A DNA stretch of 64,000 bases, from contig CAJNDT010001313.1 in NCBI GenBank assembly GCA_905221615.1, forward strand, positions 248,001-312,000, given 5' to 3'. Origin of the DNA: Symbiodinium sp. CCMP2592. Lineage: Eukaryota > Sar > Dinophyceae > Suessiales > Symbiodiniaceae. A program made the translations under genes and the position numbers. Shown piece after piece: positions 7,385 to 47,691 of this stretch. How positions within the stretch are numbered: the stretch's first letter is position 1; each line of letters begins with the position of its first letter. A model generated the notes under the pieces. It was given only the letters and a program-made list of their open reading frames with translations, was not told the origin of the DNA and did no database searches.

Positions 7385-8200
7385 ACCAGCACCCCACACA
7401 GATGGCCAGTCCGAGACAAAAGGCCCAGTGTGGACCCACGTACGAGACGGATGGCCAGCCAGTAGGTTGACCAGCACTTTAACACCACGTAGCAGCCGGA
7501 TGGCCAGTCCGAGACAAAAGGCCGGTAGAAGGTTGACCAGCACCGTAGCAGCCGGATGGCCAGTCCGAGACAAAAGGCCGGTAAAAAGTTGACCAAAGGC
7601 CGGTAGAAGGTAGGCCAGCACCACGTAGCAGCCGGATGGCCAGTCCGAGACAAAAGGCCGGTAGAAGGTTGACCAGCACCACGTAGCAGCCGGATGGCCA
7701 GTCCGCGACAAAAGGCCGGTAGAAGGTTGACCAGCGTCCGAGACAAAAGGCCGGTAGAAGGTTGACCAGCACCACGTAGCAGCCGGATGGCCAGTCCGAG
7801 ACAAAAGGCCGGTAGAAAGTTGACCAGCACCACGTAGCAGCCGAATGGCCAGTCCGAGACAAAAGGCCGGTAGAAGGTTGACCAGCGCCACGTAGCAGCC
7901 GGATGGCCAGTCCGAGACAAAAGGCCGGTAGACGGATGGCCAGTCCGAGACAAAAGGCCGGTAGAAAGTTGACCAGCACCACGTAGCAGCCGGATGGCCA
8001 GTCCGAGACAAAAGGCTGGTAGAAGGTTGACCAGCGCCACGTAGCAGACGGATGGCCAGTGTCCGAGACAAAAGGCCGGTAGAAGGTAGGCCAGCACCAC
8101 GTAGCAGACGGATGGCCAGTCTGGGTTAAAACAGTCTGTATACTGTTGACCAGCGCAGCAAGCGGATGGCCAGTCCGAGACAAAAGGCCTGTAGTTGGTT
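7385..8200 (-). repeat. 58-bp minisatellite (about 14 units)
   Basis: Tandem units containing GGATGGCCAGTCCGAGACAA and GGCCGGTAGAAGGTTGACCA recur every 56-58 bases, with a few truncated units (for example near 7,590, 7,740 and 7,930). Because 58 is not a multiple of three and the unit has no stop in any minus-strand frame, the minus strand stays open across the array, and a 58-residue pattern recurs every three units. The array lies downstream, on the minus strand, of the full spliced-leader relict at 8,457-8,478. No CAT triplet (minus-strand ATG) occurs between about 7,325 and 8,457, so a conventional start codon is missing. Confidence 0.9.
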
Positions 8201-8456
8201 GACCTCCAAGCACCACACGGCCAAGGGGAAAGCAGTCGGCCTAGCGAAAGACAGCGACTGAGAGCGGTAGGACCACTGAGAGGGTCTGCCGAAGCAAACA
8301 CCCCGAGACCAGGCGTCGGAGCCAGGGGCTGGAGCGTGAGACCACCTGGATCACACGCGGCGCGAAATTCGAGGAATGTCGCTGGGGTCTGGTACCTAGC
8401 AGTCAGCCGGTGGAACACAATGGGACCACGAGCTGAAGCTGCCTGAACCGAGACGC

Positions 8457-13779: not shown

Positions 13780-13867
13780 ATCGAGCAGGTAGCGATCAGC
13801 GCAAAAGTCTTCTGGCTAGCTCCAATAGCGAGCACCAGGATGCCAGCTTCGCCGCCTTGCACGCAGC

Positions 13868-16855
13868 ATGCAAATGCGGGCGATTCTCATACTTGTCGTC
13901 GTGCTTGCCGACGTGGATGCGACATGCGAGGTTCGGGGAGTGTGCCCCACACACACCAATGAATCAGAAGATCTTGCCTTCTTGCAAACCCGGCAAGGGA
14001 AAGATGCAGCGCAGGATCTGCAGGCGACGCCAGCCGCAAAGAAAAGTTGGTGGCGGAGGCGGAGGCGACATGCACAGTACCGTCCGTACTACTACCACTA
14101 CGGCCGCTACTACAACCGCTATGGTCCCAAGACGACGACAACGACGGTCAGGACCACAACCTCCACAGCATCTGCCGCGCCCACCACTACAATGTCACCG
14201 GCGCCTACCACGACATCGCCGTCCCCTACCACGACATCGCCCGCGCCTACGACAAGTACGACATCTGAGCCCTTCAGCAGTGTCAGCGCCCTCATACTGC
14301 TGGAGGCCAGGGATGACAGCGACGTCTCTCTCATGTCCATGCAATCATCGGTGTCCAGTGGCCAGCCGGAGCCGGGTTCACCGTGGCCATGTGCAGTCAC
14401 AGAGCGTGGCAGAGAGATCGGGTCCAACGTCGGCAACCTCCCACAATGGGGAAGAACGGGGCCGATCGGTCTCGCCAAAAGCCGGAAGAATCCTGGCTGG
14501 TGGGTGCTGCCCCCCGTGGGCGCCTTTGGCAACGAGGATCTCGTTACGTTCTTCGGTTCGAGCTTGTTCCTCACATTCACAGCGGAGATACTCACTTTAC
14601 TTCCCTTAGACGAACTTTTCCTCCAGATCCCAATGCCAGAACCCATCTCCTGGTCAGACTTGGCCATCGGCCCCGGCCCGGACCCCGAAATCTCCTACCT
14701 CTTCATTCTGGACGGGGGGCCACACAGAGGGCCGGCTCAGGAGGCTCGCAGCAGCGTGGTCATCACCAGGGTGTCCGAGATCTTCGCAGACAAGAGCGAC
14801 TTCGCAAACATGACCATGGAGGTCTTCACGGTGAACTATCCCGATGGAGGCGCCTTCATATCCAATGCGATCTTCGTTGACCAGGGTTCCCCGGCAGAGG
14901 TTCTTGGTACGTCTGGGCGCGTTTACATCATCACAAGATCGGTTGAGAGAGACGGCGCCGGTGGAGGCCAGCTCTTCTTTGTGGACTTGCCCAGCGTTGT
15001 TACCCCAACGGCCATTTTGGAGTTCACAGATACCGGCGTCAACCTCGGAATCGTCGATCTAGTAGCTGCGGATATAACTTCGGACGGCAATCTTATTGGA
15101 GCACGCAGTCTTGTTTTCCGCACCTTCTTTTGGACCCGGCCTTGTGAAACGGTTGAGCAAAGCATGGCTCAACTGTCCTGCCCCGGAGACTATCTGCCAC
15201 GAAGCCGACACCCGGAAGGTTTTTTTCCATGGTTTGGCGATACCTTTGCCTTTGGCACATCCGAGTCCGAGTACGATTACTTCATGTATGGCGTTTCCTT
15301 GGAAGGAGCAAATGTAGTGCAATTTGCTACATTCTACAAGCTCCCTGCCACTCCGAGCAACCCGCATCAATCCTGTGTGCTGCCACAGACAACCCCGTCT
15401 CCAGATCCCAACGCCATCGAGATTCTGCTCAGCAACGGAAGTGGCCAGGAGCAGTTGGTGAGTTGGTACGCCAACTACGTCAGTGTGCCGGTAAGCTCGG
15501 TCACTCTTCGGAATCCACCCGGGGTTGCCTTCGACTTAAACTTATTGCAGCTGGATGCTGGAGAGGTCATCTACTACGAGGCAGAGAATCGCAATCTGAC
15601 CTGCTTCGATCCGGACTTCTTGCGGACCCTCCTGCTGAACATGCGCTTTGATGTCACACTTCCCGCGAGCGATGAGGCTCGGGTTGTCGCTGCCGTTGCC
15701 CAGCTCGTGAGCAATCCAGAGGCTTTTGTGGAGGCTTTCCTTGCGGTCCTGCCGACGTTCTTCCCAGGCATCCAACAGGAAATCTGCAACGGAACGGTCA
15801 CGTCTGTCAGTGCGGTCTTGCAGCCAACAACGACCACCACAACCACGACAACGACGGTGCCGTGGGACTTGCCGTGGGGCTCCTCGCAGCTAAGGCCGAC
15901 ACCACCCCGGCGCCTTGCCATGCTGTCCTACACGAGCTCGCCATCAGAGTTCGTCCGCTTCGGAGGCGTTCTGACAGACGAGGTCTTGCTCTACAGGCCA
16001 CGGCTCGGACCTCTAAATTGGACCGATGTCACGCCCGCGGTGTCGGGTCCAGGCCCAAGGTTTGAGGGCACCTTTGCTTATTCGCCAGATGTTGGTGGCT
16101 CCCTGGTTTTTGGAGGAAGACGCATCGTGGGGAACGCCATCTCCAACTATGCTCCGAACAATGTGTATTTGCTCACGGGTACAGGCTTGAACTACTCGTG
16201 GACAGAGGTGGCCCCAGCTGCGGCTCCGTCTGCACCCAGCCAGCGTCGCTTTCACACAGCAGTGGTAGTCCAAAAGGATGGCGCCTACATGATGCTGATC
16301 TACGGTGGAAATCGCCAAAACTCCAACTTTGGAGGTTTGTATGCATTCTTTCTCGGCAACAGCACATGGCGACAGCTCCAGCCGGACAATGTGGGGCCGC
16401 CAAACTATCCTGCGCCCCGCTGGGGGCACTCAGCCGTCCTGGTCCCTGAGAGCTACCGCATGATCGTCTTCGCAGGAAGGGTCCAAGGGGTATCCACGAA
16501 CGAGCTCTGGGCCTACGACATCGGCGACAGTTTATGGACCCAGCTGACTCCCGCAACGCAAGGAAATAATGGCTGGCCAGAAGTCCGCTACGGGCAAATC
16601 GCCGTTTGGGGAAGCCAGGGTCGGGCGATGATTGTGGCAAGTGGTCGGCGGCCTGTCGGCACATCGCCTACTACCCCGCGTTTCTGGCAGTGGTATGAGT
16701 TCCCAGATCTGAACGGGACCTGGGTTCAGTTCGAGTATCGCCCGGACCCGGACAACGAGGTCTCAGGCAGTGGGGTCTGGGACACTCAGAACCAGACGAT
16801 GTACTACGGCTTCCAGAATGGAGCCGATATCCTCTGGACGCGAGTTTTGGAGTGA
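13868..16855 (+). CDS. Secreted Thr-rich kelch/beta-propeller protein (intronless retrogene)
   Basis: A single frame of 995 codons. Residues 1-19 (MQMRAILILVVVLADVDAT) look like a signal peptide. A basic/Tyr-rich patch (SWWRRRRRHAQYRPYYYHYG) follows at about 58-80 and a Thr/Ser/Pro mucin-like linker at about 85-138. A large middle domain (about 150-650) contains propeller-like strands such as VAADITSDGNLIGARSLVFR. A second poly-Thr linker (about 652-663) leads to a C-terminal region (about 670-995) with repeated kelch-like blades: FGGVLTDEVLLYRP, LVFGGRRIVGNAIS, MLIYGGNRQNSNFGG and MIVFAGRVQGVSTNELWAYD. Several N-glycosylation sequons are present. An extracellular or cell-surface carbohydrate/protein-binding role is inferred; no enzymatic residues are claimed. 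The absence of introns plus the spliced-leader relict 88 bp upstream indicates origin by mRNA recycling. The frame is uninterrupted, so it may still be functional. A family C hairpin begins 54 bp after the stop. Confidence 0.85.
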   Translation: MQMRAILILVVVLADVDATCEVRGVCPTHTNESEDLAFLQTRQGKDAAQDLQATPAAKKSWWRRRRRHAQYRPYYYHYGRYYNRYGPKTTTTTVRTTTSTASAAPTTTMSPAPTTTSPSPTTTSPAPTTSTTSEPFSSVSALILLEARDDSDVSLMSMQSSVSSGQPEPGSPWPCAVTERGREIGSNVGNLPQWGRTGPIGLAKSRKNPGWWVLPPVGAFGNEDLVTFFGSSLFLTFTAEILTLLPLDELFLQIPMPEPISWSDLAIGPGPDPEISYLFILDGGPHRGPAQEARSSVVITRVSEIFADKSDFANMTMEVFTVNYPDGGAFISNAIFVDQGSPAEVLGTSGRVYIITRSVERDGAGGGQLFFVDLPSVVTPTAILEFTDTGVNLGIVDLVAADITSDGNLIGARSLVFRTFFWTRPCETVEQSMAQLSCPGDYLPRSRHPEGFFPWFGDTFAFGTSESEYDYFMYGVSLEGANVVQFATFYKLPATPSNPHQSCVLPQTTPSPDPNAIEILLSNGSGQEQLVSWYANYVSVPVSSVTLRNPPGVAFDLNLLQLDAGEVIYYEAENRNLTCFDPDFLRTLLLNMRFDVTLPASDEARVVAAVAQLVSNPEAFVEAFLAVLPTFFPGIQQEICNGTVTSVSAVLQPTTTTTTTTTTVPWDLPWGSSQLRPTPPRRLAMLSYTSSPSEFVRFGGVLTDEVLLYRPRLGPLNWTDVTPAVSGPGPRFEGTFAYSPDVGGSLVFGGRRIVGNAISNYAPNNVYLLTGTGLNYSWTEVAPAAAPSAPSQRRFHTAVVVQKDGAYMMLIYGGNRQNSNFGGLYAFFLGNSTWRQLQPDNVGPPNYPAPRWGHSAVLVPESYRMIVFAGRVQGVSTNELWAYDIGDSLWTQLTPATQGNNGWPEVRYGQIAVWGSQGRAMIVASGRRPVGTSPTTPRFWQWYEFPDLNGTWVQFEYRPDPDNEVSGSGVWDTQNQTMYYGFQNGADILWTRVLE

Positions 16856-20787: not shown

Positions 20788-21054
20788 AAATGTTGTAGCC
20801 TCGAAGGTGCCGCTGCAGACGGATGAGGCCAGACCGCCTATGAGAACCGGCAGCCAACTCAGAATTTTCCCCAGTGTCGTCATGATCATGTCTCCCCCTC
20901 GCAACAGCCCGAGGCTTCGTGGACAGGCTCATCCATTCTCCCGAGGAGGTTGTTGTTTGATGTCACATAGCCGTCACATCCGCATCGAGTTGGCACAGCC
21001 GTTTCATATAGTTCTCGATAGAACTGTCCATAGCAGGATGATGAGGCCATCGCG

Positions 21055-21402
21055 ATGGCCCAGTCAGCAGTAGATGCAGCTGATGAAGCTTCTGCGAGGC
21101 CTCTAGGTTCGGACGAGATCCGTTCTTTTCAGCAAGAGGCTCCTCTCGCCTCTGCAAGGCTTGAGAGGGTGCTGCTGGAGAGTCAGCAAGCCTTCGATCA
21201 GCAGGCCGAGATTCAGGCACGCGCTGGGCACCAGAAGAGCCAGTTGTTTTCGTTCTGTGATGTTGCCTGCAGGAGCAAGCCGCGCTGGCACAAGCACTTG
21301 AAGCGTCCGATGCCAGAGTCCCGAGCTGGGATTCTGCCTGCCGCTGCTGAAGCTGAACCGAGCTCAGGCCGCTGTGAGCCGTTCACAGCGAAGGATGTCT
21401 AG
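21055..21402 (+). CDS. Exon-like segment, coiled-coil rich (left copy)
   Basis: An open frame with helical, Gln/Ala/Glu-rich sequence (SFQQEAPLASARLERVLLES and QQAFDQQAEIQARAGHQ). From about 21,274 a second frame (EQAALAQALEASDARVPSWD) also looks coding, which suggests at least one splice junction near GTTGCCTGCAG. The function is not recognised. It is duplicated exactly at 30,479-30,826. Since the right copy continues into unduplicated host DNA, the left copy is probably a non-functional fragment. Confidence 0.35.
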   Translation: MAQSAVDAADEASARPLGSDEIRSFQQEAPLASARLERVLLESQQAFDQQAEIQARAGHQKSQLFSFCDVACRSKPRWHKHLKRPMPESRAGILPAAAEAEPSSGRCEPFTAKDV

Positions 21403-21611
21403 CCGGGCAGAGAATGAGGACAGGGCTTGCACGGTGACTGACATTCAACCCAAACCCCTGAACCGTAATTGGATGTGATGCTTACCAGGACTCTTCCCTG
21501 GCCTCCCGTGGGCCTGTGCAGGGTGCGGCTGGGCGGGCACTGCGCTCGGAGAAGGCTTCGCCAGAGGCATCGGAGGCCTGAGCTGAACATTGGGGTCTAC
21601 CCATAGGCTGC

Positions 21612-21686
21612 ACAGTAGTTCCTTTTTGGGTTCATAATTTAGAATCCTATAAGGTAGTCCCGAAAAGGAACTAGTATGGAGCCTCC
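21612..21686. repeat. Hairpin element, family G (left duplicate)
   Basis: GTAGTTCCTTTTTGGGTTC pairs with GAAAAGGAACTAGTATGGAG. A second copy at 31,036-31,110 results from the 1,009-bp duplication. Confidence 0.68.
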
Positions 21687-21964
21687 AGGTATTGCACAAT
21701 CAGGGTCGCAAGACAGAGCGACGCAATTTTGCATGTCAGAGTCCAGGAAGCAGGAATGCTCCTGCCCTTACATATCAAGACGACAAGCAGGACTTCGTTG
21801 TTTGCTCTCTGCCCCGAAAACATGTCAATACTGAACCTCGAAACAGCCGATACCCAAACCTGAAAGCCACGTTCGTTTCTTTGAAGACCTGCTTACAAGC
21901 TCTGCCTGGGCCTTTCTGCGTTCATGTTCGAAATCGGTCTACGGGGGCAACCACATGTGCTTCG

Positions 21965-22024
21965 TCGAATCGACGTGGATGCTGCAGCCGCTGTCTGCTC
22001 CACGTCCCCCGACGATTTTCAGCT
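21965..22024 (+). repeat. Split direct repeat A1 (element 5' end)
   Basis: A 60-base block beginning TCGAATCGACGTGGATGCTG, identical to A2 at 30,089-30,148. It marks the left end of the element, and the host sequence stops directly before it. Confidence 0.92.
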
Positions 22025-22047
22025 TTCCGGTAGACCCTCCCGCCGCC

Positions 22048-23375
22048 ATGGCTTACCAGTCCTCCGACGTGGTCTCGGCGCTGGACATGATCCGCCGTGC
22101 CGTCGCCGCCGGCGACGATCTGAGCCAGCTCTTCGCCGAGTGGAGCGGACTGGAACGGCGGGCCCTGGTGTCGGCGATCAACAGTCCCGCCGCTGCTCCA
22201 GGGCCCGTCGTGTATGGCGATTCTTTGAGGGTCACTCCGGCGAGCTCAAGTGGAGTGGCAGCAGCCACGCCGGCGCCGTCGGACGACCCGTGCCCGGAAC
22301 CCCCCGTCGACAGGCATCACGCGCCTCCTTCGGCGCACGCGGGGGTCTCCGGCGCACCGTCGTCCGCGGCCGACATGCCGGCGGCAGGAAAGCCATCGGG
22401 TGGTGGATACCCGCAGAAGCCCACCCGTCCGGCGCCGTCGGTGCCGAAAGGCAGCCCGCCGGAAGTCTGGGACCAGGTGGGGTATCTCTGTCGGACCGAC
22501 GCGGAGTTGGCATACAAGCACAACATCCCGACGGCCGACGCCTACTACCGGCGGTACCAGACGGTGCTTCCGGATCGGATCACGCCGTCGACGGTGATCC
22601 CTGGGCCGCCGCCGCCGGCTGGCCCGTCCCCGTCGGTGCCGATCGTCGACTACCAGGACCGCATCGCCGAGGAGCTCCGGCGGCAGTTCGAGGAGGAGTC
22701 GCGACACCAGCGCACCGTCGGGCCGCAGGTGAAAGCCATGCCGGCCGCTTCGGCACCGTCGCCGTCGCCGCCAGCACCGTCGGGGTCATTCCGCAGGGCA
22801 CCTACACCAACGCCGCAAGAGATGTACCCCGACGCGGATCCGATCACTGGCGCCGGCTTCCCCATCCTTCCACGGCGGCCGGGGCAGAATGCCTCCCCCG
22901 CCGAGCTCGAGCGCCACAGGCGCGAGTACCGGCGTCTGGCCACATCCGCCGGATGCTCTGCTCGCAGGAGTGGCGCGACCACGTCGAGCTGATGGGCAAG
23001 TCCGGTGTGAGGTCCGACGTGACGCTGCCGGAGACGCTCCGGCCCCTCACCGTCGCCAACCTGGAGCACTTGGAGGACATTGAGAGGGCCGCCGCCGACG
23101 GCTCCACAGCCATGGTACCGGCGGCCGCCGCAGCGGCTTACTATGTGCTGCGGGCGCTGCCGCCCGGCGTCCGGGGAGGCCGCATTCCGGAGAAGATCCC
23201 CGGCGAGATCTGGTGTGTCGGGTGGTGCGGGCACCCGTGCACCAACGGTCGCTGCCGAGGCATTCCCGGCAGATGCCTCCGTCCGGTGTTGATTCGGGCC
23301 GGCGGCACCGTCGACTTGGATCGCCACGACCACCATGAGTGCGAAGACTGCCACGAGCAGTCCCGGCACCGGTGA
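22048..23375 (+). CDS. Gag-like protein of the YR retrotransposon (frameshifted)
   Basis: The ATG at 22,048 lies in a strong context (CGCCGCCATGG), 23 bases after repeat A1. The first frame gives about 315 codons, Ala/Pro/Ser-rich with a structured segment (DQVGYLCRTDAELAYKHNIP) and a Glu/Arg-rich helix (DRIAEELRRQFEEES). Near 22,940 the likely protein moves to another frame and continues (MLCSQEWRDHVELMGKSG) to a stop at 23,373-23,375. The C-terminus is rich in Cys and His (CVGWCGHPCTNGRCRGI and HHECEDCHEQ), which suggests zinc binding as in nucleocapsid domains, though it is not a standard CCHC knuckle. The assignment as gag rests on position and this Cys/His tail. Confidence 0.6.
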
Positions 23376-23633
23376 TCCGGTCGACCGGCCCCCGTCGCTA
23401 TCTCACCGTCGCCGTCTTCTACAAGGTCGACCTCACCGACGGCCTTGTCGCTGGCGACGTGGGAATTCAAGCCTCAGGGGGTGCGTCGGTGAAGCCTTCG
23501 CGGGCCTCTCCCGACGCCTTAATTCAATTTCTTTTCTGCCCGGCGTTGTAATCGCCCAGGGCCCGACTCAGAGCCGATCAGGCGCCACCGGCGCGAGAAA
23601 GGAGGGCGGCCGTCGCAGTGCAGTTTCTCATGC

Positions 23634-25370
23634 TTGCCCGTCGTTCGTCGTGCACCTGTTTTTCTTTTACCTTTTTCTTTAGGAGGTTCGGTTGGCTCGA
23701 GGCGCCAAGGCCGGCGCACGCCTAGGCCCCTTTGGCCCCATGCGGCCCCGCCGCGGGACGGCGGACTTCGGCCGGCTGGTGGCTGGGGGCATCCGACCAC
23801 TTGCCCCGAGGGGCGACGGTCCTCAGGACCGGCCCCGTCAACTCAGATCGTGCCGGCAGGGCCCGCGATAGGGCCCTCCGCGACGGCCGTAGTACCGACC
23901 GACGGTCCAGTAGTGGTCGCGGCGACGGTTCGCGGACCAATCCCGCCCCCGGCGACGGTCTCCGACCGGCCGACGGAAAAGCGGAAGGACATTCCGCTCA
24001 GGAGGGACACCCGTCGAGCGTGCAAACGCACCGCCTTTGAAGCAGCCCTCCCGGAGAACAGGGAGGCGGCGCTGGCGGAAATCGACGAGAACATCCTCTC
24101 CGTCCAGAACTATTTCTGACGCCGCCGTGTCCTACCAGGAACAGTTTCGCGGCGAGGCCGTCGACCCCCTTCATCCGGCGGGCCATGCGCCGCTATGCCC
24201 GGGCAGTGGTCCGTGGCTTGCCCGGCTCGAAGCTGAAGGCCATCTTCGCCGTCGGCCGCCTGGTGGCCCTGGTCTCCAGGGTGGACCCGCCGGGGGCCGA
24301 CGCGTGGAGCCCGTGGGTCACGGCACACGCCGTCGACGCCCTTATCCTGGCGGTGTGGTTCATGCTCCGCGAGATCGAGTTCTCAGCGGCGCGGACGCAG
24401 GACATTGATGTCGCCGACGGCACCGTCGCCCTCCGGCTTCCCCTGCACAAGACCGAGGTCGAGCTGACCCAACGCCAGCTACGGTGCGCTTGCGGGGCAA
24501 CCGTGGCGCCGTTGTGCCCCTACCACGCGGCGCTACGCCATGTCTCCCGCATGTCTCCCGCCTTCGGCGTGCCGGACGGTGGGTGCGTGAGGCACCCCTG
24601 TTCCCCGACGCGACCGGTGACACCTGGGAGAAGTCAGAGACCGTCCTCTTCTTCCGGCGGGTCTTGATCCAGCTGACCACCACCGACCACAACGGCGCCA
24701 CCGTCCAGCTCTTCAACGGCCATTTGGCACGGGTGGCCGGCGCAGCGTGGCTGGCGTCCAAGGGCGTCAACACGCCAATCATCCAGTTGCTGGGCCGATG
24801 GTCGTCGGCCGCCGTCGAGCGGTACGTCCAGGCAGCGCCGCTGGCAGTCGCCCCGGACGTTCCCCGGCGCATATTGGCGGATGACGTCGAGATAGTCAGC
24901 GTCCGGCCGGCGTATGGCGACGCCATCTCGCAGGCCAAGGCCCCACCGGCTCTCGGCCATCAGCCGCCGCTGGCCCTGGAGGATGGAGAGCCGGCTCAGG
25001 TGGAGACGCCGCCGCACGAGGATCACTCCCCGACGGTCGCGTTCGAGCCCGGCCCCGTCAGACCTGAGACGGTGAGCAGGTCGCCGTCGCGCCGTCGGAG
25101 CACCTCATTTACAATGAGCGGCAGAAGAGGGCTCACGCCCCTGATCCGACGGAGGCCTCGTCGGACCGCTTTCTGTGGAAAGCGCGGGGTTGTTCCTGGC
25201 CATACGGCGTCCGGAGTTTTTATAGGATCACCGAGCTACCGGCGGGAGCCGCCAAGTGCCTTAGGTGCTTTCCGAAGGCCCCGTCGGCTGACGGTGTCGG
25301 GTCGCCGACGGAGGAGGCAGCCTCCCCAGTGGCATCTAGCTCAGATTCCGACGATTCTTCGTCGTCCTGA
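23634..25370 (+). CDS. Tyrosine recombinase of the retrotransposon (multiple frameshifts)
   Basis: Catalytic signatures of tyrosine recombinases are visible in order: Arg in VWFMLREIEFSAARTQDI (about 24,355-24,410), Lys in LPLHKTE (about 24,440-24,460), His-x-x-Arg in NGHLARVAGAAWLASKG (about 24,716-24,765), Trp in LGRWSS, and the nucleophilic Tyr in AVERYVQ (about 24,812-24,830). An N-terminal helical region (AALPENREAALAEIDENILS) precedes them. After the nucleophile a tail ends in an acidic Ser/Asp run (SSSDSDDSSSS) with a stop at 25,368-25,370. The frame changes near 24,119, 24,170, 24,540 and 25,060, so no uninterrupted product can be read. The enzyme would insert the circular cDNA at host sites. 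Confidence 0.8.
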
Positions 25371-25493
25371 GAAAAGGGACCGGTGCCGTGCACTTGGTGA
25401 GACCGTCGCTGCGCACAGTGCATCTTGTTTCGTGCCGCAGCCCGCCTTTGACCGCACCGCCCGTCCATCCCCGCCGGCCCCCTCGTCGTGATC

Positions 25494-26763
25494 ATGGCTA
25501 TGGGTCCGCAGCTCGTCGCCGACGTCTGACCGACTTCGACGACCTCGCCACGTCGGCGGGGGCGGGTCCGGACCTCGTCGCGTACCTGAAGGCGCGGTCT
25601 CTCAACCGCACGGCTACCCTCGCCCTCGTCGCCGACGAGTGGTCCGACGTGGACGTGAGGGTCTTCCAGCCGTTCCGCGACGGCGACGAGATCGCCGGGA
25701 CGACATACAAAGCGACGCCGGCGGAGCAGCCAGTCGTCCGGGCCATCATCCGCCACATGTGGTCGGAGGCCCGGCGGCAGTGGAACGAGTTCTCCACCCC
25801 TGCCCCGGCCCCGTCGACGGCCGCACCGCCGCCGGCCACCCTGCCGACGATGGTCGGCGAGAAGCCGCCGCGGACCTTCCCGGAGTGGACCGACCTCGTC
25901 GCCCGCTACAACGCCGTCCAGCTCGGGGGTGAGCCCCGCTCGTTCCCGGCGGAGCGCCTCGTCGGAGCAGAGGAGGTGCTCGCCAGGATCCACTGGGAGC
26001 ACACCAAGTCCAAGCTCTACACGCCGCTCGGCCTCGGCGAGATCCTGGCGGCCCGAACTTGGTCCTCCCTCGGCGTCGTCAATCCCCTCGCCGGCCGTCG
26101 CAGCACCGGCGGGGCACAGAGCATCAAGTTCGTGCCGTTCGTCCGAGAAGCATGTCAACGGCCATCCGCTGGGCGTGGGTCCTGACCGGCGTGGGGACAG
26201 AGGCCGGCGTCATTAGGTACGTCGATTGGTGGACGACCAAAGCCCGGCTTCACTCGAGCAAGCTCGAGGCCGTCGTCGCCTACTGGGACGCCACGGCGCA
26301 CCAGCTCGCCATGTCCATGCGCCTCGCCCGGACCTTCGAGGAGGTGACCTCGGCGATCATGGCGGACCAGGCGGCGTTCAATGAGGCACTCCAGTCGGCC
26401 GTCAAGCCCGGCCCGCCGAGGACCGACGGGCGGCCAACTCAGCCACCCGACGGAGGACGACCACACAGCCGACACCCCCAAGGGGAAGGGGAAGGGCCGA
26501 GGTCGGCCCCGTCGCCGCCCCGGGAAGGGAGGACGACGGCGCCAACAAGCACTAGGGTCGTGATCACTACGACGACCGGCGCCAGCCCCAGAACCGCTGG
26601 AAGCAGGCCGTCAGGACCAGTGGGACCAGGACGACCGTCGCGGTGGGAAGGACCGCCGGGACGAAGGCTGTCGGGAGGACCCCAAGCGCCGCCGCTAGGG
26701 ACAGCGCGGGGCCTCCTCGCCCGGATCGGACAACCACGGCGAGGTACCCGGCAGCCACTGTGC
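25494..26763 (+). CDS. N-terminal region of the RT-methyltransferase polyprotein (unknown domain)
   Basis: The ATG at 25,494 (TCATGG context) reads MAMGPQLVAD and is followed, after a one-frame shift near 25,532, by LTDFDDLATSAGAGPDLVAY and a globular segment with FPEWTDLVARYNAV. After another shift near 26,150 comes VIRYVDWWTTKARLHSSKLE and a helical AFNEALQ segment. A basic low-complexity linker (KGKGKGRGRPRRRPGKGGRR, about 26,480-26,545) leads to the methyltransferase. The domain is not one I can name; by position it would be the N-terminus of the pol-like protein. The basic linker suggests nucleic-acid contact. Confidence 0.55.
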
Positions 26764-27690
26764 TAGTACCGTCGTCCGACCGGCACTCAAGCGCACCCGG
26801 CGGGCGCCCAAAATCATCCTGCTCTCGTTCTTTGACGGGATCGGTGCGGCCCCGGCGCTGGTGGAAAATCTATTCGGTCAACCGACCCTGGCGCTGGCGT
26901 GGGAGATTGACGCCACTTGCCGACGGCTGGCGTCGGCGAGGCTGCCGTGGCTGGTCCACAGAGGCGACGTCACATCGGAGTCGCCCGGCTCCGTCGCGGC
27001 GGCCATCAGGAAAGCCGACCCGACTGGCGAATGTACCGTGGTTGTCACCGCCGCTCCGCCGTGCCAAGACTTTTCGCGGATCGGCCCGGCGACGGGCCAC
27101 GCGGGCGAGAGGGGGAGCCTCTTCCTCCTCACCGTCGACATGTTCAACCAGATCATCGCCGACCTCTCCAGAACGTCGTGATGGAGCCCGCCGACGCCGC
27201 CAAGATCAGCGACGCCCTCGGCGTACAGCCGGTCCTGGTCTGCGGGTCGGATTTCGGCTGGATTTCCAGGCCCCGACTATGGTGGATGTCGGCGGACCTG
27301 ACCGGCGCCCTGGTGGATCCGGCGTCCGTCGAGTCCGGCAGGTTGCGCCTCCCGTGCTCCACAACACCGGCTGAAGACGCCGGCGGGAGACAGCCTCCGA
27401 AGAGGGTTCGGCAGAAGCTTCCCGAACCGGCGAAGGCCCGCTGGGCGGCGGACGGCCGACGGTTCGCCCCTTGGCACTATGTCGAGGAGGCCATGATGCA
27501 TGACGACGCGGGCCGCCTCCACAACATCCCGGCGGGCGTCAAGGAGCGCCTTCATCACATTCCGTCGGGTTACACCCAGGCCAGCTTCGTCGACGACACC
27601 GCCCGCCACCGCGTCATCGCCAACGGATGGCACTGGGGGGTAGCCCGCCGCCTGCTGGCGATCATCGTGGCCTTCTCCGTCGCTTCCTCG
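26764..27690 (+). CDS. C5 cytosine DNA methyltransferase domain (DNMT3/Dcm-like)
   Basis: The conserved motifs appear in order: motif I LLSFFDGIGAA (about 26,818-26,850, cofactor binding); motif IV TAAPPCQDFSRIG, with the catalytic Cys codon at 27,062-27,064; motif VI LQNVVMEPADAAKI, where the usual Glu of ENV is read as Gln beside a frame change near 27,170; motif VIII region SRPRLWW; and motifs IX-X GYTQASFVDDTARHRVIANG followed by WHWGVARRLL. The spacing GDVTS ... PPCQDFS ... ENVV-like ... RxRxxW resembles DNMT3-type enzymes. C5 methyltransferases transfer a methyl group from S-adenosylmethionine to cytosine in DNA. YR elements that carry a methyltransferase usually carry an adenine-type domain after RNase H; here the domain is cytosine-type and lies before RT. 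A single frameshift inside it means this copy is probably inactive unless that is a sequence error. Confidence 0.82.
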
Positions 27691-28040
27691 TCTACGGCAG
27701 CACCGGTACCTGAGCCCCGTCGGTCAACCCTCCAGTGGGCCGCGGAACAGTTCGGCGGGGGACCGGTGCCGATGGAGCCACCGCCGCGACACCGACCGGA
27801 CATCGACCTCCCCGACGACGACCCGGACCTACATTGGCAGCTGTCGGCGTCCCTGCGGCACTGCACCTTGACCCGGCGGCCCGATCTGGAGCCGGCCTTG
27901 GAGCGGGTACTGCTCCTCTGGCGGTCGTGGCGCCACGACCTGGCGAGGATCCGGCAGGAGGTGCTACAGGACATCTCCCACCTCGTCGACGACATGGAGG
28001 ACCACATGCAGAGCTGGCTGGAGCAGCGGTCGCCGTCGGT

Positions 28041-29870
28041 CAGAGCGACATACTCGAGGACCTGACCGACGGCTTCGACATGTTGGGAGAACTCCGCCGA
28101 GGCCCGGGGTGGAGGACCAGAACCGACGAGAAGTACTCCAACCCGGCGTCGATCGAGAACTTCGCGTCGGCGAACTGGGAGTACATTAAGCGGCGGGCGT
28201 CCACAGCCACCGTCGGGGAGCACACCGACACCCTCCTCGCCGAGCTCGTGGAGGAAGTCCGTCTCGGCCGGGTGGTCGGCCCAACCCGGGCCCCCGACGG
28301 TTGGAACTTCAAGACGACGGCACTCCTTGACAGGCCGGGGGCCGACCGTCTGGTCCCGCCGCCGCCGGGCCAGGCCTTTGCCGCAGCCTCCTTCCCCGTC
28401 GTGCAAGAAGACGAACAGGGAGGAGCAAAGGTCCGTCGCGCCGAAGACTGGCGCAGGTCCGGACACAACTCCACCGTCAGGGCCCACGACGTTCCGACGC
28501 ACCATTTCGTCGACGACTTCGTGGATATGGTCCGGCGAGTGGTTGACCAGGCGGGGGGGCCGGCGACGCTGGCGAGGATATTCGGGCATGACCTCCTCAA
28601 CGCCTACCGCCAGTGGCCGGTCAAGCACCCGGCGCACTCCGGCACCTTCATCGCGAGCCCAGCCGGCGCATCCCTCTGGTTTCATATGGCGATGTGCTTC
28701 GGCGCCGCCGCGTCGGTATGGCACTTTAACCGGACAGCCGACGCCCTCCAGGCCATACAGCGGGTGCTCCTCTGGATCCTGGCCGGCCATTTCGTCGACG
28801 ATTTCAACGGCGTCGACATGCACGAGTCGGCGAACTCGGCCTTCCGGGCGATGGCCGACTTCTTCGAGCTCGTCGGGTTGCAGACGAAGCCGTCCAAGGC
28901 CCAGGCCCCGGCGACTCAACGGACAGTCCAGGGCGTCCTCGTGTCCGTCGAGACCGACGCGGTGGTCCTGCAGCCGACCGAACGACGCGTCAAGAAGGTC
29001 CTGACGACGATCGACGCCGCACTGGCCAATGACGAGCTCACGCCGGATGTGGCGAACCGTCTGGCCGGCAAGCTCAACTTCATCACCCAGTCGACCTTCG
29101 GCGCCCTGGGGAAGGCGGCCCTCCAGCCCGTCTACTCAAGGGCACACGACGCGGCGGCCACGTCGGCCACGTCGCTGTCGACGGGCCTCCGGGCAGCCCT
29201 CACGTCTCTCCGGGCCCTGCTGGCAGACATCCGGCCGAGGAGGGTACCCATCATAGACGACGGGGCCCCGGCGGCCATCATTTATGCCGACGCCTTCTAC
29301 CAGCCCGGCGAGGTGAAACACAAAGCCGGGCACATACCGGCAGAAGTCGGAGTCCGGCCGGGGACCCGAGGCCGGAACGGCTGGGGCTTCGTCGTCCGCA
29401 TCGGCGCCCTCGTCTTCTACGACTGCGGCGTGGTGCCGGCCAAGTTCCTGGACATTTTCGCCTCCCGTCGGGCTTTTATCTACGTCCTCGAGATCGTCGC
29501 CCAGGTTCTGGCGCTGGTCACTTTGTCCCGTCGGTTGCCCCAGAGGTGGCTGGCCTTCATCGACAACGTCGCCGGCCAATGGGCACTCACCAAAGGGTAC
29601 GGGAAGGACCCCGCCGTCAACGGCGTCTTGGCGGCCTTTTGGTCCACGGCGGCTCTGTCGGAATGGCTTCCCGACTTCCGTCGGGTGCCGTCCAAAGCCA
29701 ACGTCTCCGACGCAGTGTCGAGAGGAGACCTTCACACGGCGGAAAGTTCCGGCTGGGAGCGGGTTCACACACCCGTCGAGTCGATCCTCAAGGTGCTCTC
29801 CCGGGCCGCCGCCGACCTAGACTTTGCGGTGAACGACGCCGCCGACGAGCTACTGAATCTGGCGGTGTGA
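28041..29870 (+). CDS. Reverse transcriptase - RNase H of the retrotransposon
   Basis: A frame of about 610 codons open to the TGA at 29,868-29,870. It probably continues the methyltransferase frame through a frame change near 28,040. RT motif A is GHDLLNAYRQWPV (first catalytic Asp), motif B is MCFGAAASVWHFNR, and motif C is GHFVDDFNGVD (Asp-Asp pair). The thumb-like segment LANDELTPDVANRLAGKLNF follows. The RNase H-like part has acidic residues in AIIYADAFYQPG, YVLEIVAQVL, FIDNVAGQWALTKGYG and VPSKANVSDAVSRGD. The FVDD form and the RNase H layout fit DIRS/PAT/Ngaro-type enzymes. This is the best preserved part of the element. Confidence 0.88.
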   Translation, partial: QSDILEDLTDGFDMLGELRRGPGWRTRTDEKYSNPASIENFASANWEYIKRRASTATVGEHTDTLLAELVEEVRLGRVVGPTRAPDGWNFKTTALLDRPGADRLVPPPPGQAFAAASFPVVQEDEQGGAKVRRAEDWRRSGHNSTVRAHDVPTHHFVDDFVDMVRRVVDQAGGPATLARIFGHDLLNAYRQWPVKHPAHSGTFIASPAGASLWFHMAMCFGAAASVWHFNRTADALQAIQRVLLWILAGHFVDDFNGVDMHESANSAFRAMADFFELVGLQTKPSKAQAPATQRTVQGVLVSVETDAVVLQPTERRVKKVLTTIDAALANDELTPDVANRLAGKLNFITQSTFGALGKAALQPVYSRAHDAAATSATSLSTGLRAALTSLRALLADIRPRRVPIIDDGAPAAIIYADAFYQPGEVKHKAGHIPAEVGVRPGTRGRNGWGFVVRIGALVFYDCGVVPAKFLDIFASRRAFIYVLEIVAQVLALVTLSRRLPQRWLAFIDNVAGQWALTKGYGKDPAVNGVLAAFWSTAALSEWLPDFRRVPSKANVSDAVSRGDLHTAESSGWERVHTPVESILKVLSRAAADLDFAVNDAADELLNLAV

Positions 29871-29912
29871 GCGGGCTAAGCCGGCGCAGAGTGGGTGAGG
29901 GGAGCGCCGGGC

Positions 29913-30058
29913 GGCAGCTAAAAGCGTCCCCCGGCGCCGGCTTGCCTCGTACTGGCGATTGCGACGGACCCGGCGCGAATGCGCTTCAAACCATCCAAAA
30001 AGAAAGGGTTCGTCTGTCGTAGCTCTTTTGGGTACCCGTCGGGGAAAACGGTTGTCGT
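29913..30058 (+). repeat. Split direct repeat B1
   Basis: A 146-base block starting GGCAGCTAAAAGCGTCCCCC and ending GGTTGTCGT. It matches B2 (30,235-30,380) with one mismatch (CTGTCG versus CCGTCG). It begins 43 bases after the RT stop. Confidence 0.92.
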
Positions 30059-30088
30059 GTAGCACATTTATGTGCGTAGGGACAACCG

Positions 30089-30148
30089 TCGAATCGACGT
30101 GGATGCTGCAGCCGCTGTCTGCTCCACGTCCCCCGACGATTTTCAGCT
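30089..30148 (+). repeat. Split direct repeat A2
   Basis: 60 bases identical to A1. The 30 bases between B1 and A2 include GACAACCG, an inverted partner of the CGGTTGTC at the end of B1, so a small stem forms at the B1-A2 junction. Confidence 0.92.
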
Positions 30149-30234
30149 CCCACCCTCACCGCCCTTGTTGGGTGATATGCTTTTTTTTATTTGGAGACCT
30201 TCGGGTCGTCGCTCGCTGGCGGGCAGCGGGCCGG

Positions 30235-30380
30235 GGCAGCTAAAAGCGTCCCCCGGCGCCGGCTTGCCTCGTACTGGCGATTGCGACGGACCCGGCGCGA
30301 ATGCGCTTCAAACCATCCAAAAAGAAAGGGTTCGTCCGTCGTAGCTCTTTTGGGTACCCGTCGGGGAAAACGGTTGTCGT
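30235..30380 (+). repeat. Split direct repeat B2 (element 3' end)
   Basis: Second copy of B, one mismatch to B1. It ends CGGTTGTCGT directly against the right copy of the 1,009-bp host repeat, with one base shared between them. Confidence 0.92.
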
Positions 30381-31388
30381 TTGATGTCACATAGCCGTCA
30401 CATCCGCATCGAGTTGGCACAGCCGTTTCATATAGTTCTCGATAGAACTGTCCATAGCAGGATGATGAGGCCATCGCGATGGCCCAGTCAGCAGTAGATG
30501 CAGCTGATGAAGCTTCTGCGAGGCCTCTAGGTTCGGACGAGATCCGTTCTTTTCAGCAAGAGGCTCCTCTCGCCTCTGCAAGGCTTGAGAGGGTGCTGCT
30601 GGAGAGTCAGCAAGCCTTCGATCAGCAGGCCGAGATTCAGGCACGCGCTGGGCACCAGAAGAGCCAGTTGTTTTCGTTCTGTGATGTTGCCTGCAGGAGC
30701 AAGCCGCGCTGGCACAAGCACTTGAAGCGTCCGATGCCAGAGTCCCGAGCTGGGATTCTGCCTGCCGCTGCTGAAGCTGAACCGAGCTCAGGCCGCTGTG
30801 AGCCGTTCACAGCGAAGGATGTCTAGCCGGGCAGAGAATGAGGACAGGGCTTGCACGGTGACTGACATTCAACCCAAACCCCTGAACCGTAATTGGATGT
30901 GATGCTTACCAGGACTCTTCCCTGGCCTCCCGTGGGCCTGTGCAGGGTGCGGCTGGGCGGGCACTGCGCTCGGAGAAGGCTTCGCCAGAGGCATCGGAGG
31001 CCTGAGCTGAACATTGGGGTCTACCCATAGGCTGCACAGTAGTTCCTTTTTGGGTTCATAATTTAGAATCCTATAAGGTAGTCCCGAAAAGGAACTAGTA
31101 TGGAGCCTCCAGGTATTGCACAATCAGGGTCGCAAGACAGAGCGACGCAATTTTGCATGTCAGAGTCCAGGAAGCAGGAATGCTCCTGCCCTTACATATC
31201 AAGACGACAAGCAGGACTTCGTTGTTTGCTCTCTGCCCCGAAAACATGTCAATACTGAACCTCGAAACAGCCGATACCCAAACCTGAAAGCCACGTTCGT
31301 TTCTTTGAAGACCTGCTTACAAGCTCTGCCTGGGCCTTTCTGCGTTCATGTTCGAAATCGGTCTACGGGGGCAACCACATGTGCTTCG
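30380..31388 (+). repeat. 1,009-bp direct repeat, right copy
   Basis: Matches 20,956-21,964 with no difference that I could find. To its right the host sequence diverges at GCTTCG (AGATTCG here, TCGAATCG where the element starts). It includes the coiled-coil exon-like frame at 30,479-30,826 and a family G hairpin at 31,036-31,110. Confidence 0.9.
30479..30826 (+). CDS. Exon-like segment, coiled-coil rich (right copy)
   Basis: Same sequence as 21,055-21,402. This copy is contiguous with downstream exon-like sequence: an Ala-rich piece (AQHAPGPAAAPVTSASSATA, about 31,416-31,520) after the acceptor CTAATCCACAG, then EQLQQAAQELAKSFSQQDLR (about 31,650-31,710). It is therefore the copy most likely to belong to a functional host gene, possibly the first gene of the TPR array, but the join is not proven. 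Confidence 0.38.
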   Translation: MAQSAVDAADEASARPLGSDEIRSFQQEAPLASARLERVLLESQQAFDQQAEIQARAGHQKSQLFSFCDVACRSKPRWHKHLKRPMPESRAGILPAAAEAEPSSGRCEPFTAKDV

Positions 31389-44103: not shown

Positions 44104-44325
44104 TTAATCCGAATCAGTCGCTCCGGGTTCGTGCGAGTTAGAGGCGTCAGGAAAGCCAGAGAAGATGCGACCCTCGTCGAGCTCGGCTGCCAGGCCTGCA
44201 AAAGAGGCCAGTGGAGCTTGAGAAGCTAGATTCGGAGGGCTTGGGGACGAAATGTATGCCAACAACTGAAGATTGTCCGCTTTCAAACTGGACAGACTGG
44301 GCTTCCCCCCCCCTCCCCCCGCCAT
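44104..44325 (-). CDS. Possible C-terminal exon, unknown protein
   Basis: The minus-strand frame contains DNLQLLAYISSPSPPNLASQ then FAGLAAELDEGRIFSGF and ends PGATDSD before a stop. The composition (acidic, no repeats) is protein-like. Its upstream half is repeated at 47,692-47,802 because the 3,477-bp duplication begins inside it (44,215), so only the left copy keeps the C-terminus. No family recognised. Confidence 0.3.
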   Translation of the reverse strand: MAGGGGGKPSLSSLKADNLQLLAYISSPSPPNLASQAPLASFAGLAAELDEGRIFSGFPDASNSHEPGATDSD

Positions 44326-45162
44326 CTGAATTAAGCTTCAACGACTCCTGAGCCTCCCCCAGTCAGGACTCTGCGGATGCTGCCGGGCTTTCTGCGAGCC
44401 AGCGCTCACCCCAGCAAAGAGATCAGCTTTTCGGGATGGGTCCTTCGGTGCTGGGTGCTACCTCAAACCCCCGGAACCGTAAGCCTTTAAACGCCTGAAC
44501 CCCGAAACTCTACCCCAAAGCTTAGTTAGATATGATCTTCGGGCTTGGAGCTTGTTTTCAAAGCGTAGAGGAAGATAGTGGGTATACTTAGAAGACTGCA
44601 CAAGTACCAAAATGATCCTCCGATTTCCTATATATTAATACAGGGATGATAGGTCTCAAAAACCCTGCTCCAATTATTACGGCCCTATACTAGAGGTCCC
44701 TGTATACACTTGAAGATCAAAAGCTCTCAATGTGACTCACATGCAGAGGCCCTGCAAAAACAAACGCTAAGCCTTTCTCCAGTAGATCCTTACACCTGTG
44801 TCTTTTTTGAAAAGCTGGGACTTTCAGACAACAGGAGGCCTTTAATTTAAACTTAAGCCCTAAATCCAGGATCCTGAGTTGTAATCAAAAGGTATACCCT
44901 TGATATTCTGAACCTTCAGATCTACATATGGATGGCTGAGTATTCAATCCTTACTTCCGTTTTTTGGATTCCCTATACTAACTTAGCCAATTGCAGAACT
45001 TTAAACTTCTTGGCTGTACCTATTTGGCCTATCCTAAAAAGTTTGAACTGTTTTTGGGCCTGGTTATTGGAGGAGAGAGTATAATTACACCAGACTATAT
45101 CCCAACAAGCTGCTCTGATTGTTAACATTAACGGGCTCCTCCATACCCCGTCCTTAAAAGGA

Positions 45163-45255
45163 ACTCCAGAAAGTTGAAATATGGATTAATGGTAGGATCC
45201 CCTGTAATTTACATTAAAGGGGTTACGACAACGATATTCCAACTTTCTGGGTTTT
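45163..45255. repeat. Hairpin element, family K
   Basis: CCAGAAAGTTGAAATAT and ATATTCCAACTTTCTGG flank a centre containing GGATCCCCTGTAATTTAC. Duplicate at 48,640-48,732. Confidence 0.78.
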
Positions 45256-45329
45256 ACCTTAACCCTTGAAGAGTCAAGGTCTGAGGCGGTCCTGCCAGCG
45301 CCTCGAATCCTTGGGCAGAGCGAATACCT

Positions 45330-45404
45330 GGACCCCAAAAGTAGATAGAATAATAGCCTTATATGGGTATTGGGCCATTATTTTGCCTACTTTGGGTGGT
45401 TTAG
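45330..45404. repeat. Hairpin element, family J
   Basis: ACCCCAAAAGTAGATAGAAT pairs with TTTTGCCTACTTTGGGT. Duplicate at 48,807-48,881. Confidence 0.75.
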
Positions 45405-45604
45405 GTACTACAAAGAATCCCAAAATCCAGTTCTAATCATTCAGGCCCAGATAGTAGGTAGTATGGTATGGTTTGGGCCTTGTCGGGCTCAGGGTTTAGA
45501 GGGTTGGGGTTTGGGGTTTGGATGTTGCAGGTTGCAGGGTTGAGGAATTGCGGGTGTTCGGGTATCGGGTTTTCAGGTTGTTATGTGAGTGGTTGTTAAA
45601 ATTG

Positions 45605-45676
45605 CGGTCCCTTTCTGGGTCCCTAATACACTACGGCTTCTAATGACCTAATATTTACGGTGTCCCAAAAAGGGAC
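45605..45676. repeat. Hairpin element, family L
   Basis: GGTCCCTTTCTGGGTCCC pairs with GTGTCCCAAAAAGGGACG. Duplicate at 49,082-49,153. Confidence 0.65.
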
Positions 45677-46328
45677 GTCTATTTTGAAAACTACCCATGT
45701 AGTTAAGCTTTCGCTGTGTTTGTTGTCTGTCTTCACGTGTGCAATACTGCAATATATTTCAGGCATGTTATACAACCGTGTTGAGCCAGCGACCTTGGCA
45801 AACAGGATTTCAGCATCTACGAGACAATGCGGAGCAGGATTTCGGACTTGGTTGACTGCAATGCGCAGAGGGTCGGGAGAGCATTCACAGTCCTGCGTCA
45901 TGTTCCAGTCCAACGCCTACGGAGCCACCAAGACCCCTCACTCGAGATTTCATGGTCCAGGCCCAGCAAGTCGCGCCCAGCAGAGACAACGAGCCTCAAA
46001 CAGGACGCTGGCCGTGTTTTGCTCCGCATGCAGGATTTTGAAAGCCCTGGAGCTGGCATTGGGGATGGCTCTGGACTTGGGGGATTGGAAGAGAGCTAAT
46101 GGATGGAGAACGCTTGTTATCTCGCGGGGTTTGACTTTGGTTTGGAATGTTCCGAATCTTGGAGGTCAAGCGTTCAAGAGATGTCTTGGTGGATCGGTTC
46201 TGCGCTCGGAGCCAAAAATGCCCGACTACAACGGTACTGCGTTTTTTGTTGAAAAATGGAGATCCTTCGTGTTGTTGACTCCAGCTTCGGCTTTCGGAGT
46301 AGTTGAAGCCTGGCGTCCCAAACCCTAA
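45660..46328 (+). CDS. 222-codon open frame, unknown; possible degenerate TPR remnant
   Basis: A long frame without a recognised domain in its own register. An overlapping frame (45,827-46,099) contains TSLKQDAGRVLLRMQDFESP, which resembles the helix LQLGAAFIRVQDFEGAAEAF of TPR gene 1. The unit may therefore carry a decayed TPR exon. The duplicate at 49,137-49,805 differs by one base. Real coding status is doubtful. Confidence 0.22.
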   Translation: MSQKGTSILKTTHVVKLSLCLLSVFTCAILQYISGMLYNRVEPATLANRISASTRQCGAGFRTWLTAMRRGSGEHSQSCVMFQSNAYGATKTPHSRFHGPGPASRAQQRQRASNRTLAVFCSACRILKALELALGMALDLGDWKRANGWRTLVISRGLTLVWNVPNLGGQAFKRCLGGSVLRSEPKMPDYNGTAFFVEKWRSFVLLTPASAFGVVEAWRPKP

Positions 46329-46386
46329 ACCCTAATCCCGAAAGTCTAAACCCCTAAACGCCAAAACCCTAAACCCTGAACCCCAA
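46317..46386 (-). repeat. CCCTAAA telomere-like tract
   Basis: About eight partly decayed units; duplicated at 49,794-49,863. Confidence 0.82.
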
Positions 46387-46429
46387 AGCAAGCCCCAACA
46401 GTCAGCCTTGAAGCTCACGAGCCCTATCT

Positions 46430-46684
46430 ATGTCGCCATACCTGAAGGATGCGGCCGAAAGCCCTACCAACGCTGCCTCTGAGAAGACAGCAGAGGCTCC
46501 GACGGGGGACCCAGGGGCTGCTGTGCAGTGCCGTTTACACAAAGACTGCTTCGAGAGTACTGAAGGTCTCGGGTCATGTCCTGTAGGAGCCATGACGGAG
46601 GGCTTGAATTTCAGCATGTTTTGGTTTTGGAGCTGTAGGGTTTCAAGGGAATCAGCTCGTCGTGCTGGACATGTTTGGCTGTAG
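46430..46684 (+). CDS. Possible exon, Ala/Glu/Thr-rich
   Basis: The frame begins MSPYLKDAAESPTNAASEKT and continues AEAPTGDPGAA. The composition is that of a disordered linker like the other exons of the TPR region. It probably leaves the frame near 46,530. Duplicate at 49,907-50,161. Confidence 0.27.
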   Translation: MSPYLKDAAESPTNAASEKTAEAPTGDPGAAVQCRLHKDCFESTEGLGSCPVGAMTEGLNFSMFWFWSCRVSRESARRAGHVWL

Positions 46685-47016
46685 GCGGAGCCTTGAATTT
46701 CAATGAGGGGTACATGGCAAACGTGCAGTTCTTTGTTCCCGTTCGACGGAAGAAAGCATGGCAGACTTGATGAAACAGCTTCTGGTCATGCTTGAACTAC
46801 AACGATGCAATGCTGTGGTCCGAGATATTTGCTGAAGTCACCGTAAACCAGCGCACACACACACACAGAGCCTGCACACCTCTAAAGCACAGGCACAGGT
46901 TTGCCGTCAGCATCCCCCTTCCGAAATAACTGAAGGTTGTGAGGGACGTAGGTCAGATTCTGCGCTTTTCTGCCTTCACTTTGGATCTGTAGGCGCCTCG
47001 TGCTCTTCTTCTCGTT

Positions 47017-47196
47017 GGAGCTGGCGCTGACGGCCTCGACTTGCCGAGCGGCACAGCTGTGCGCCGGCTGGAGACCGCTAGCGATGGCCTGGTGAAAGTG
47101 GAACTGCCCAGCGGCGACCACGCATGGGTGAGCTCTGACCACCTCCAGCTGGAGGACGGGGGGGGGGACGTCTTTAAGCGCAGCTTTCACTTTTGA
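47017..47196 (+). CDS. Exon with an SH3-like fold segment (copy 1)
   Basis: GAGADGLDLPSGTAVRRLET followed by ASDGLVKVELPSGDHAWVSS and DHLQLEDG has the strand spacing of small SH3-like barrels (G-T-x-V-R ... G-x-V-K-V ... G-x-x-x-W-V ... L). The frame passes a run of ten G and stops at 47,194-47,196. The real 3' edge may be earlier, before the G run. The function is not recognised. Duplicate at 50,494-50,673, including the ten-G run. Confidence 0.42.
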   Translation, partial: GAGADGLDLPSGTAVRRLETASDGLVKVELPSGDHAWVSSDHLQLEDGGGDVFKRSFHF

Positions 47197-47691
47197 ACCC
47201 CCCCTCCCCTTTAAGCAGGGGTGATCCGTCAGCGCACACACGGAAGCATTCAGCACTCTACTCTTAATCCACCATACGAACATAGGCCCTGTCAATCCTC
47301 GAAGCTGGAAGCGAAGTTCACGCAGAATCTTGAAAGCCCCCAACTCAAATAATTCTTGACACACAATAAAGCCAGATGCACTCCAAAAGTCCTAGCCACT
47401 GTGGTCGAAGCGCCTGCAGCCAGGCATTTCCGGATGGTACCCGCTCCCGGCTGGGGATGTTCTCTGCAAGGTTTGATGGTAAGGAGGCGGCTAGGTCGCA
47501 AGTCTCGGCTGGGTTTTGGGCTTTCGGTTTTTGGGATGGCAGGACCGACATTCATCTGGCTCTTAGTAGCTGAGTGGATGCACTTTACACTTTTTGGGAT
47601 AATACTAGCCACTATAAATCTGAAAGTGAACACTTTTTGGGAGGCTTATGAATTCAGCAACTAAGGGCTTCTTTCTGAACGGAACCCTATA

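Follow-up and report, generated by a model that had tools for sequence, protein, structure and literature searches.

The 64,000-nucleotide stretch of Symbiodinium sp. CCMP2592 DNA analyzed here (the window, on contig C1313) raises the question of what kind of mobile element joins a tyrosine recombinase (YR), a C5 cytosine methyltransferase (MTase) and a reverse transcriptase (RT), and how it came to its present site. The window contains a YR retrotransposon with the arrangement A1-coding-B1-A2-B2, carrying ORF1, the YR and the MTase upstream of RT/RNase H. It extends from 21963 to 30378 and, as the first-pass annotation of this DNA had read it, has all its parts on the + strand. Chance is not the source of this pattern, since tens of copies are found across the genome, of which 1.098 Gb in 5,383 contigs were searched. 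The best explanation of the locus as a whole combines membership of the element, in degenerate form, in the published SymbioDIRS-Dnmt3 family with a model of YR integration at a TTGT core, and we regard this explanation as very probable. The element kind itself is already published; new compared with the text of PMC5890265 are the TTGT insertion core and the odd 1,010-bp duplication at the window copy.

Parts of the element and known relatives

Comparison of the copies shows that the parts follow the order ORF1, YR and Pol, the last consisting of an N-terminal domain, a Dnmt3-type MTase, RT and RNase H. ORF1 (22048-23375) occupies two frames in the window and a single 443-residue frame in the copy on C1055 (L080); its C-terminus is Cys/His-rich as judged by eye. 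The YR region follows at 23523-25491. Its signatures R, K, HxxR, W and Y, listed by the first-pass annotation, are all present in the catalytic half, divided between the frames 24041-24664 (R, K) and 24409-25491 (HxxR, W, Y), and they are nearly invariant across 32 aligned relatives. The modelled YR of relative P0051 was nearest to Cre (best E 6.4e-7), with a mean predicted local distance difference test score (pLDDT) of 62.8 and low TM-scores (0.3-0.5 for the Cre matches), and this weak model suggests that the family YR may have a Cre-like fold.

The N-terminal domain of Pol (25340-26766), delimited by comparison with relative P0001 and probably Gag-like, is split into 25340-26185 and 25933-26766. 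The MTase comes next in two frames, as traced by frames, Pfam and copy comparison, with motifs I and IV in its N-terminal part (26699-27181) and motifs VIII and X in its C-terminal part (27182-27700, the end being approximate), which is read in the other frame (26911-28065). A linker, the RT (FVDD) and RNase H then share an open 718-residue frame (27714-29870) that is 98% identical to the C1055 copy. The RT and RNase H of the earlier reading thus hold, with RNase H assigned by position and by eye.

Of the profile searches that had been recommended, the one for the MTase succeeded (PF00145, E=6.6e-6), while Pfam at the thresholds used detected neither YR nor RT in the window. For the RT piece of C1055, Pfam RVT_1 reached only E=0.3 and phmmer found none of the PDB sequences at E<=1. 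With YR and RT so poorly reached by sequence searches, structure models of relatives P0051 and P0005 were used to compare folds. The Pol model of P0005 (mean pLDDT 82.9) showed DNMT3 and RT folds in structure comparison.

The window copy is decayed: MTase motif VI is lost, and the catalytic half of YR, ORF1 and the N-terminal Pol domain are split between frames, while RT/RNase H is open. The copy on C1055 is not intact either, since its YR is divided between one 483-residue frame (catalytic half) and an overlapping one (N-terminal part), and its MTase and RT are in different frames.

The first-pass annotation had suggested a distinct lineage and was unsure whether the DNMT-capturing retrotransposons reported from Symbiodinium are split-repeat YR elements. 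The text of de Mendoza et al. (2018; PMC5890265) answers both points: the reported class is such an element, and the lineage is already described there as SymbioDIRS-Dnmt3, in two domain orders and with purifying selection on its MTase. The window family resembles SymbioDIRS-Dnmt3 in its A-coding-B-A-B repeats, in its separate YR ORF (frame-split in the window copy), in its many copies with purifying selection on the MTase, and in a Dnmt3-type MTase that shares one Pol ORF with RT. A single open Pol frame with both domains was found on C5002 (1130 residues), C4889 (1112 residues) and C257 (1119 residues), whereas it is broken in the window copy. The cases differ in that the window copy is broken and its host, in all likelihood a coral-symbiont alga, is probably not among the four species analyzed in PMC5890265.

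Other systems are less similar. PAT and Ngaro elements also have A1-[ORFs]-B1A2B2 split direct repeats and a YR instead of a DDE integrase, and Ngaro is described as devoid of a methyltransferase domain (PMC3266345; PMC8547959); the window family differs from them in its cytosine MTase upstream of RT and its TTGT insertion core. Methyltransferases known from the DIRS class are, according to the text of PMC5890265, Dam-like adenine enzymes. KnitGypsy-Dnmt3 likewise has a retrotransposon Pol with a captured Dnmt3, but its Pol is of the Gypsy type, its host is another one and the capture was independent (PMC5890265).

The methyltransferase as part of the family

The window MTase keeps the motifs I, IV, VIII and X that had been listed for it. 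Motif VI (ENV), which now reads QNV, has been lost because two stretches present in other copies, about 25 and about 109 bases long, are missing here. The MTase of C1055 supports the earlier proposal of a host-type DNMT placed between an N-terminal domain and RT, as all 24 of its matches to PDB sequences at E<=0.1 are DNMT3A/B/C (best 9.5e-6). The same architecture is seen in related proteins: in P0005 (1,078 residues) MTase and RT follow each other within a single protein, and in P0001 (1,499 residues) an N-terminal domain precedes both.

A host gene that fell by chance into one copy would be the alternative, and the broken MTase of the window copy and the gene model P0122, with ORF1, YR and RT and no MTase match, could be taken to point that way. 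The other copies argue strongly against it. DNA searches gave at least 52 match rows for the MTase, at least 42 for the B1-A2-B2 block and at least 41 for the 5' end, numbers that are lower bounds and in which one copy can give several rows. An MTase match on the same strand lies no more than 3 kb upstream at 67 of the 88 RT match rows. This pairing took in 88/88 RT rows and 88/111 MTase rows; the remaining 23 MTase rows were on contigs with no RT match, 25 kb off (C1006), or next to matches that had entered the count (C1313, C5313). Five copies are internally deleted even though both of their ends are present (C4101, C28, C189, C3090 and C5344).

Among the 53 relatives with RT, the MTase is always ahead of RT wherever both matched. 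In P0138, a gene model named 'Skav', which we take to stand for S. kawagutii, the YR is followed by the MTase and then by the RT. The RT also served to look for a sister family free of the MTase. Thirty-one related proteins have 500 residues or more before RT; 25 of them show an MTase match, one more a fragment, and five no match. Four of these five (P0127, P0128, P0148 and P0152) have the appearance of fused gene models, with Pfam domains unrelated to the element, which leaves P0122 as the single possible exception to the rule that the MTase accompanies the RT.

Selection points in the same direction. The ratio of nonsynonymous to synonymous change (dN/dS) in the MTase was 0.06-0.21 in 31 of 45 pairs from 10 copies, those pairs with more than 10% synonymous differences, and the MTase is under purifying selection across copies. 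Of 21 copies examined, three (C1055, C3334 and C1277) retain a single open stretch containing motifs I, IV, VI, VIII and X, with 12 of the 18 others covered in part only. Given the upstream matches, the relatives and the purifying selection, a chance insertion of a host gene is vanishingly unlikely.

Element ends, insertion core and flanking duplication

The split repeats of the first-pass annotation (60 and 146 bases) are real, with corrected lengths and limits. A1 (21963-22024) exactly matches 30087-30148, whereas full-length A is 92 bp, as in A2 (30057-30148). B1 (29906-30056) ends in GGTTGTC and joins A2 directly; it differs from B2 (30230-30378) by one mismatch and one 2-base gap. The right end of the element is the end of B2 at 30378, not 30380. 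Other copies begin as flank|GTGTAGCACATTYATGTGCGTAGGGACAACCGTCG, with few variants, and end as AACGGTTGTC|flank. Their left ends start 30 bases earlier, so these 30 bases are missing from the window A1. Inverted repeats, GGTTGTC/GACAACC, lie in the B1-A2 junction (38 bp at 30050). Most of the B1-A2 blocks displayed have GGTTGTC|GTGTAGC, and base variants of it occur on C28, C3746, C5162, C5344 and C59.

Two copies have unusual junction regions. One on C262 (L032, L035) has an extra A-B unit at its right end, giving B-A-B-A-B, which may record recombination between repeats. On C4876 (L058; 48651 and 58703), the B1-A2 junction seems to be split exactly at its TTGT by about 10 kb of other sequence, with block matches at 1-166 and 165-489, which is what insertion of a second element into the junction core would look like.

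The ends of the other copies show that insertion occurs after a TTGT core. TTGT plus one base precedes the element at 20 of 25 left ends (the 25 include one on C5169 taken from the comparison of end pairs), against a flank background of 0.005 (p about 5e-42). The base after the core at all 25 left ends is G in 13, T in 9, C in 2 and A in 1. Right ends carry TTGTC in 24 of 25 (the exception is C28), a count favoured by a search pattern that itself held TTGTC with up to three substitutions allowed, and the flanks beyond are mostly unrelated, with one flank common to C1277 and C239 and another to C262 and C4949. Since the left ends vary in the base that follows TTGT, as target sequence would, and the right ends have the element's C there, the canonical ends fit a reciprocal crossover immediately after that base. 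No SymbioDIRS insertion core was found in the main text of PMC5890265. The literature searched, with subscription papers and supplements outside its scope, held no title on such a core for SymbioDIRS.

At the window copy, 1,010 bp of host DNA (X) stand in perfect direct copy on both sides of the element, at 20955-21964 and 30379-31388, the final two bases of the left copy (CG) being common to A1. The window keeps both an empty target, GGTTGTT|GTTTGATG at 20954/20955, and a filled right junction, GGTTGTC|GTTTGATG at 30378/30379. The empty core TTGTT (20950-20954, + strand), just upstream of the left X, fits the TTGT plus one base seen at the left ends. The presence of both junctions in the window supports GGTTGTT|GTTTGATG as the probable site at which this copy was inserted.

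PAT/Ngaro elements are not known to make a target-site duplication. None is seen here, as the right flank directly follows TTGTC and continues as in the empty target, and 18 of 19 other end pairs have no flank repeat; the nineteenth (C296) lies inside satellite DNA. This comparison set the left 250 bases (14 pairs) or 1,500 bases (5 pairs) against about 1,500 bases on the right, so longer duplications could escape it. In five of the 19 pairs (C239, C694, C3334, C3746 and C4977) the ends are separated by over 15 kb and could belong to different copies; of the remaining 14, 13 are free of a flank repeat and C296 is the other. The C296 copy (L074, L028) sits within a tandem satellite, and its flanks match each other many times.

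The duplication is therefore an aberrant event or an assembly error, and not a target-site duplication. In the simplest reading of the left side, the join connects an uninserted locus, after X, to A1 of an inserted one, 30 bases into the repeat at the shared CG, and was made either in the cell or by the assembler. We give slightly less than an even chance to the assembler, which would have chained empty and filled versions of the locus so that left X and truncated A1 never stood in one molecule. In favour of the assembler, all 1,010 bp of the duplication are identical and the join has only a 2-base match, 18 of 19 other end pairs show nothing comparable, and the likely source assembly is described as a hybrid of short and long reads (PMC8045281). 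The window has a second near-perfect tandem duplication as well, a 3.48-kb repeat of 99.94% identity (44215-51170; units 44215-47694 and 47692-51170) that is itself either recent or an assembly artefact. Against an assembly error, the likely source included long reads, and a 2-base match is a poor chaining point for an assembler.

It is possible, but on present evidence unlikely, that YR integration at TTGT misfired in vivo. Site-specific recombination would then have made one end, and repair would have joined the other to a sister copy lacking the insertion; such a process would create kb-scale host duplications and truncated A1 ends. Very improbable is the remaining view that the repeats, which flank the element exactly on its right side, are true long terminal repeats (LTRs) of this family or an unusually long target-site duplication that it generates. 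We rejected it on the X copy, right-end and end-pair comparisons: no flank repeat marks 18 of the 19 other end pairs, 24 of 25 right ends stop at the same TTGTC, and the genome search for X, with 40 of 2598 candidates scored, found two full copies, a partial 94% match on C161 and many further matches due to a dispersed repeat of about 100 bp inside X.

Elsewhere in the window, a minisatellite array (7401-8204) is built of units about 58 bases long, with compound periods near 91, 150 and 209, and its minus strand is open for up to 464 residues. An open 1,008-residue frame (13829-16855) matches Kelch repeat families in its C-terminal part (PF24681, E=2.1e-23).

Proposed life cycle and methylation

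In the life cycle we propose, the transcript would be copied by RT/RNase H, and the B1-A2 block, as the joined right and left ends, would allow both termini to be rebuilt. A circle with a TTGTC-GTGTAGC junction would then form, and this junction would serve the YR for recombination at a genomic TTGT plus one base; the left end would keep the base of the target, and the right end the C of the element. In the integration model for DIRS1-like elements, a 3 bp junction similarly recombines with an identical target and no target-site duplication arises, whereas the terminal repeats of those elements are inverted (PMC3266345). The MTase fused to RT may methylate the CpGs of new complementary DNA, which would make it resemble the CG-methylated host genome. 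The isolated MTase domains of two distantly related SymbioDIRS-Dnmt3 copies performed de novo CG methylation in yeast (PMC5890265).

Several observations weigh against this account and the family assignment. Five of the 25 left ends have no exact TTGT, two of them with one flank in common (C262), and the search pattern favoured the core at the right ends. At 21 of the 88 RT match rows there is no close upstream MTase match, with 105 of 573 MTase candidates scored. The assignment to SymbioDIRS-Dnmt3 follows the anatomy described in PMC5890265 rather than clustering with published element sequences, and the family is known here from DNA, from which the RNA, cDNA, circle and methylation steps are deduced. 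The observed/expected CpG ratio is 1.13 in the element and 0.71-0.72 in the window flanks; CpG is not depleted, and there is therefore no mutational trace of self-methylation. In addition, according to the text of PMC5890265, SymbioDIRS-Dnmt elements and DIRS elements that lack a DNMT do not differ significantly in CG.

Retrotransposons with a host-type cytosine MTase, whose discovery is already published, bear on the co-evolution of mobile elements and genome-wide methylation. Added here are the exact element ends, the TTGT insertion core and the predicted circle junction, which together specify substrates for testing how a YR retrotransposon integrates.

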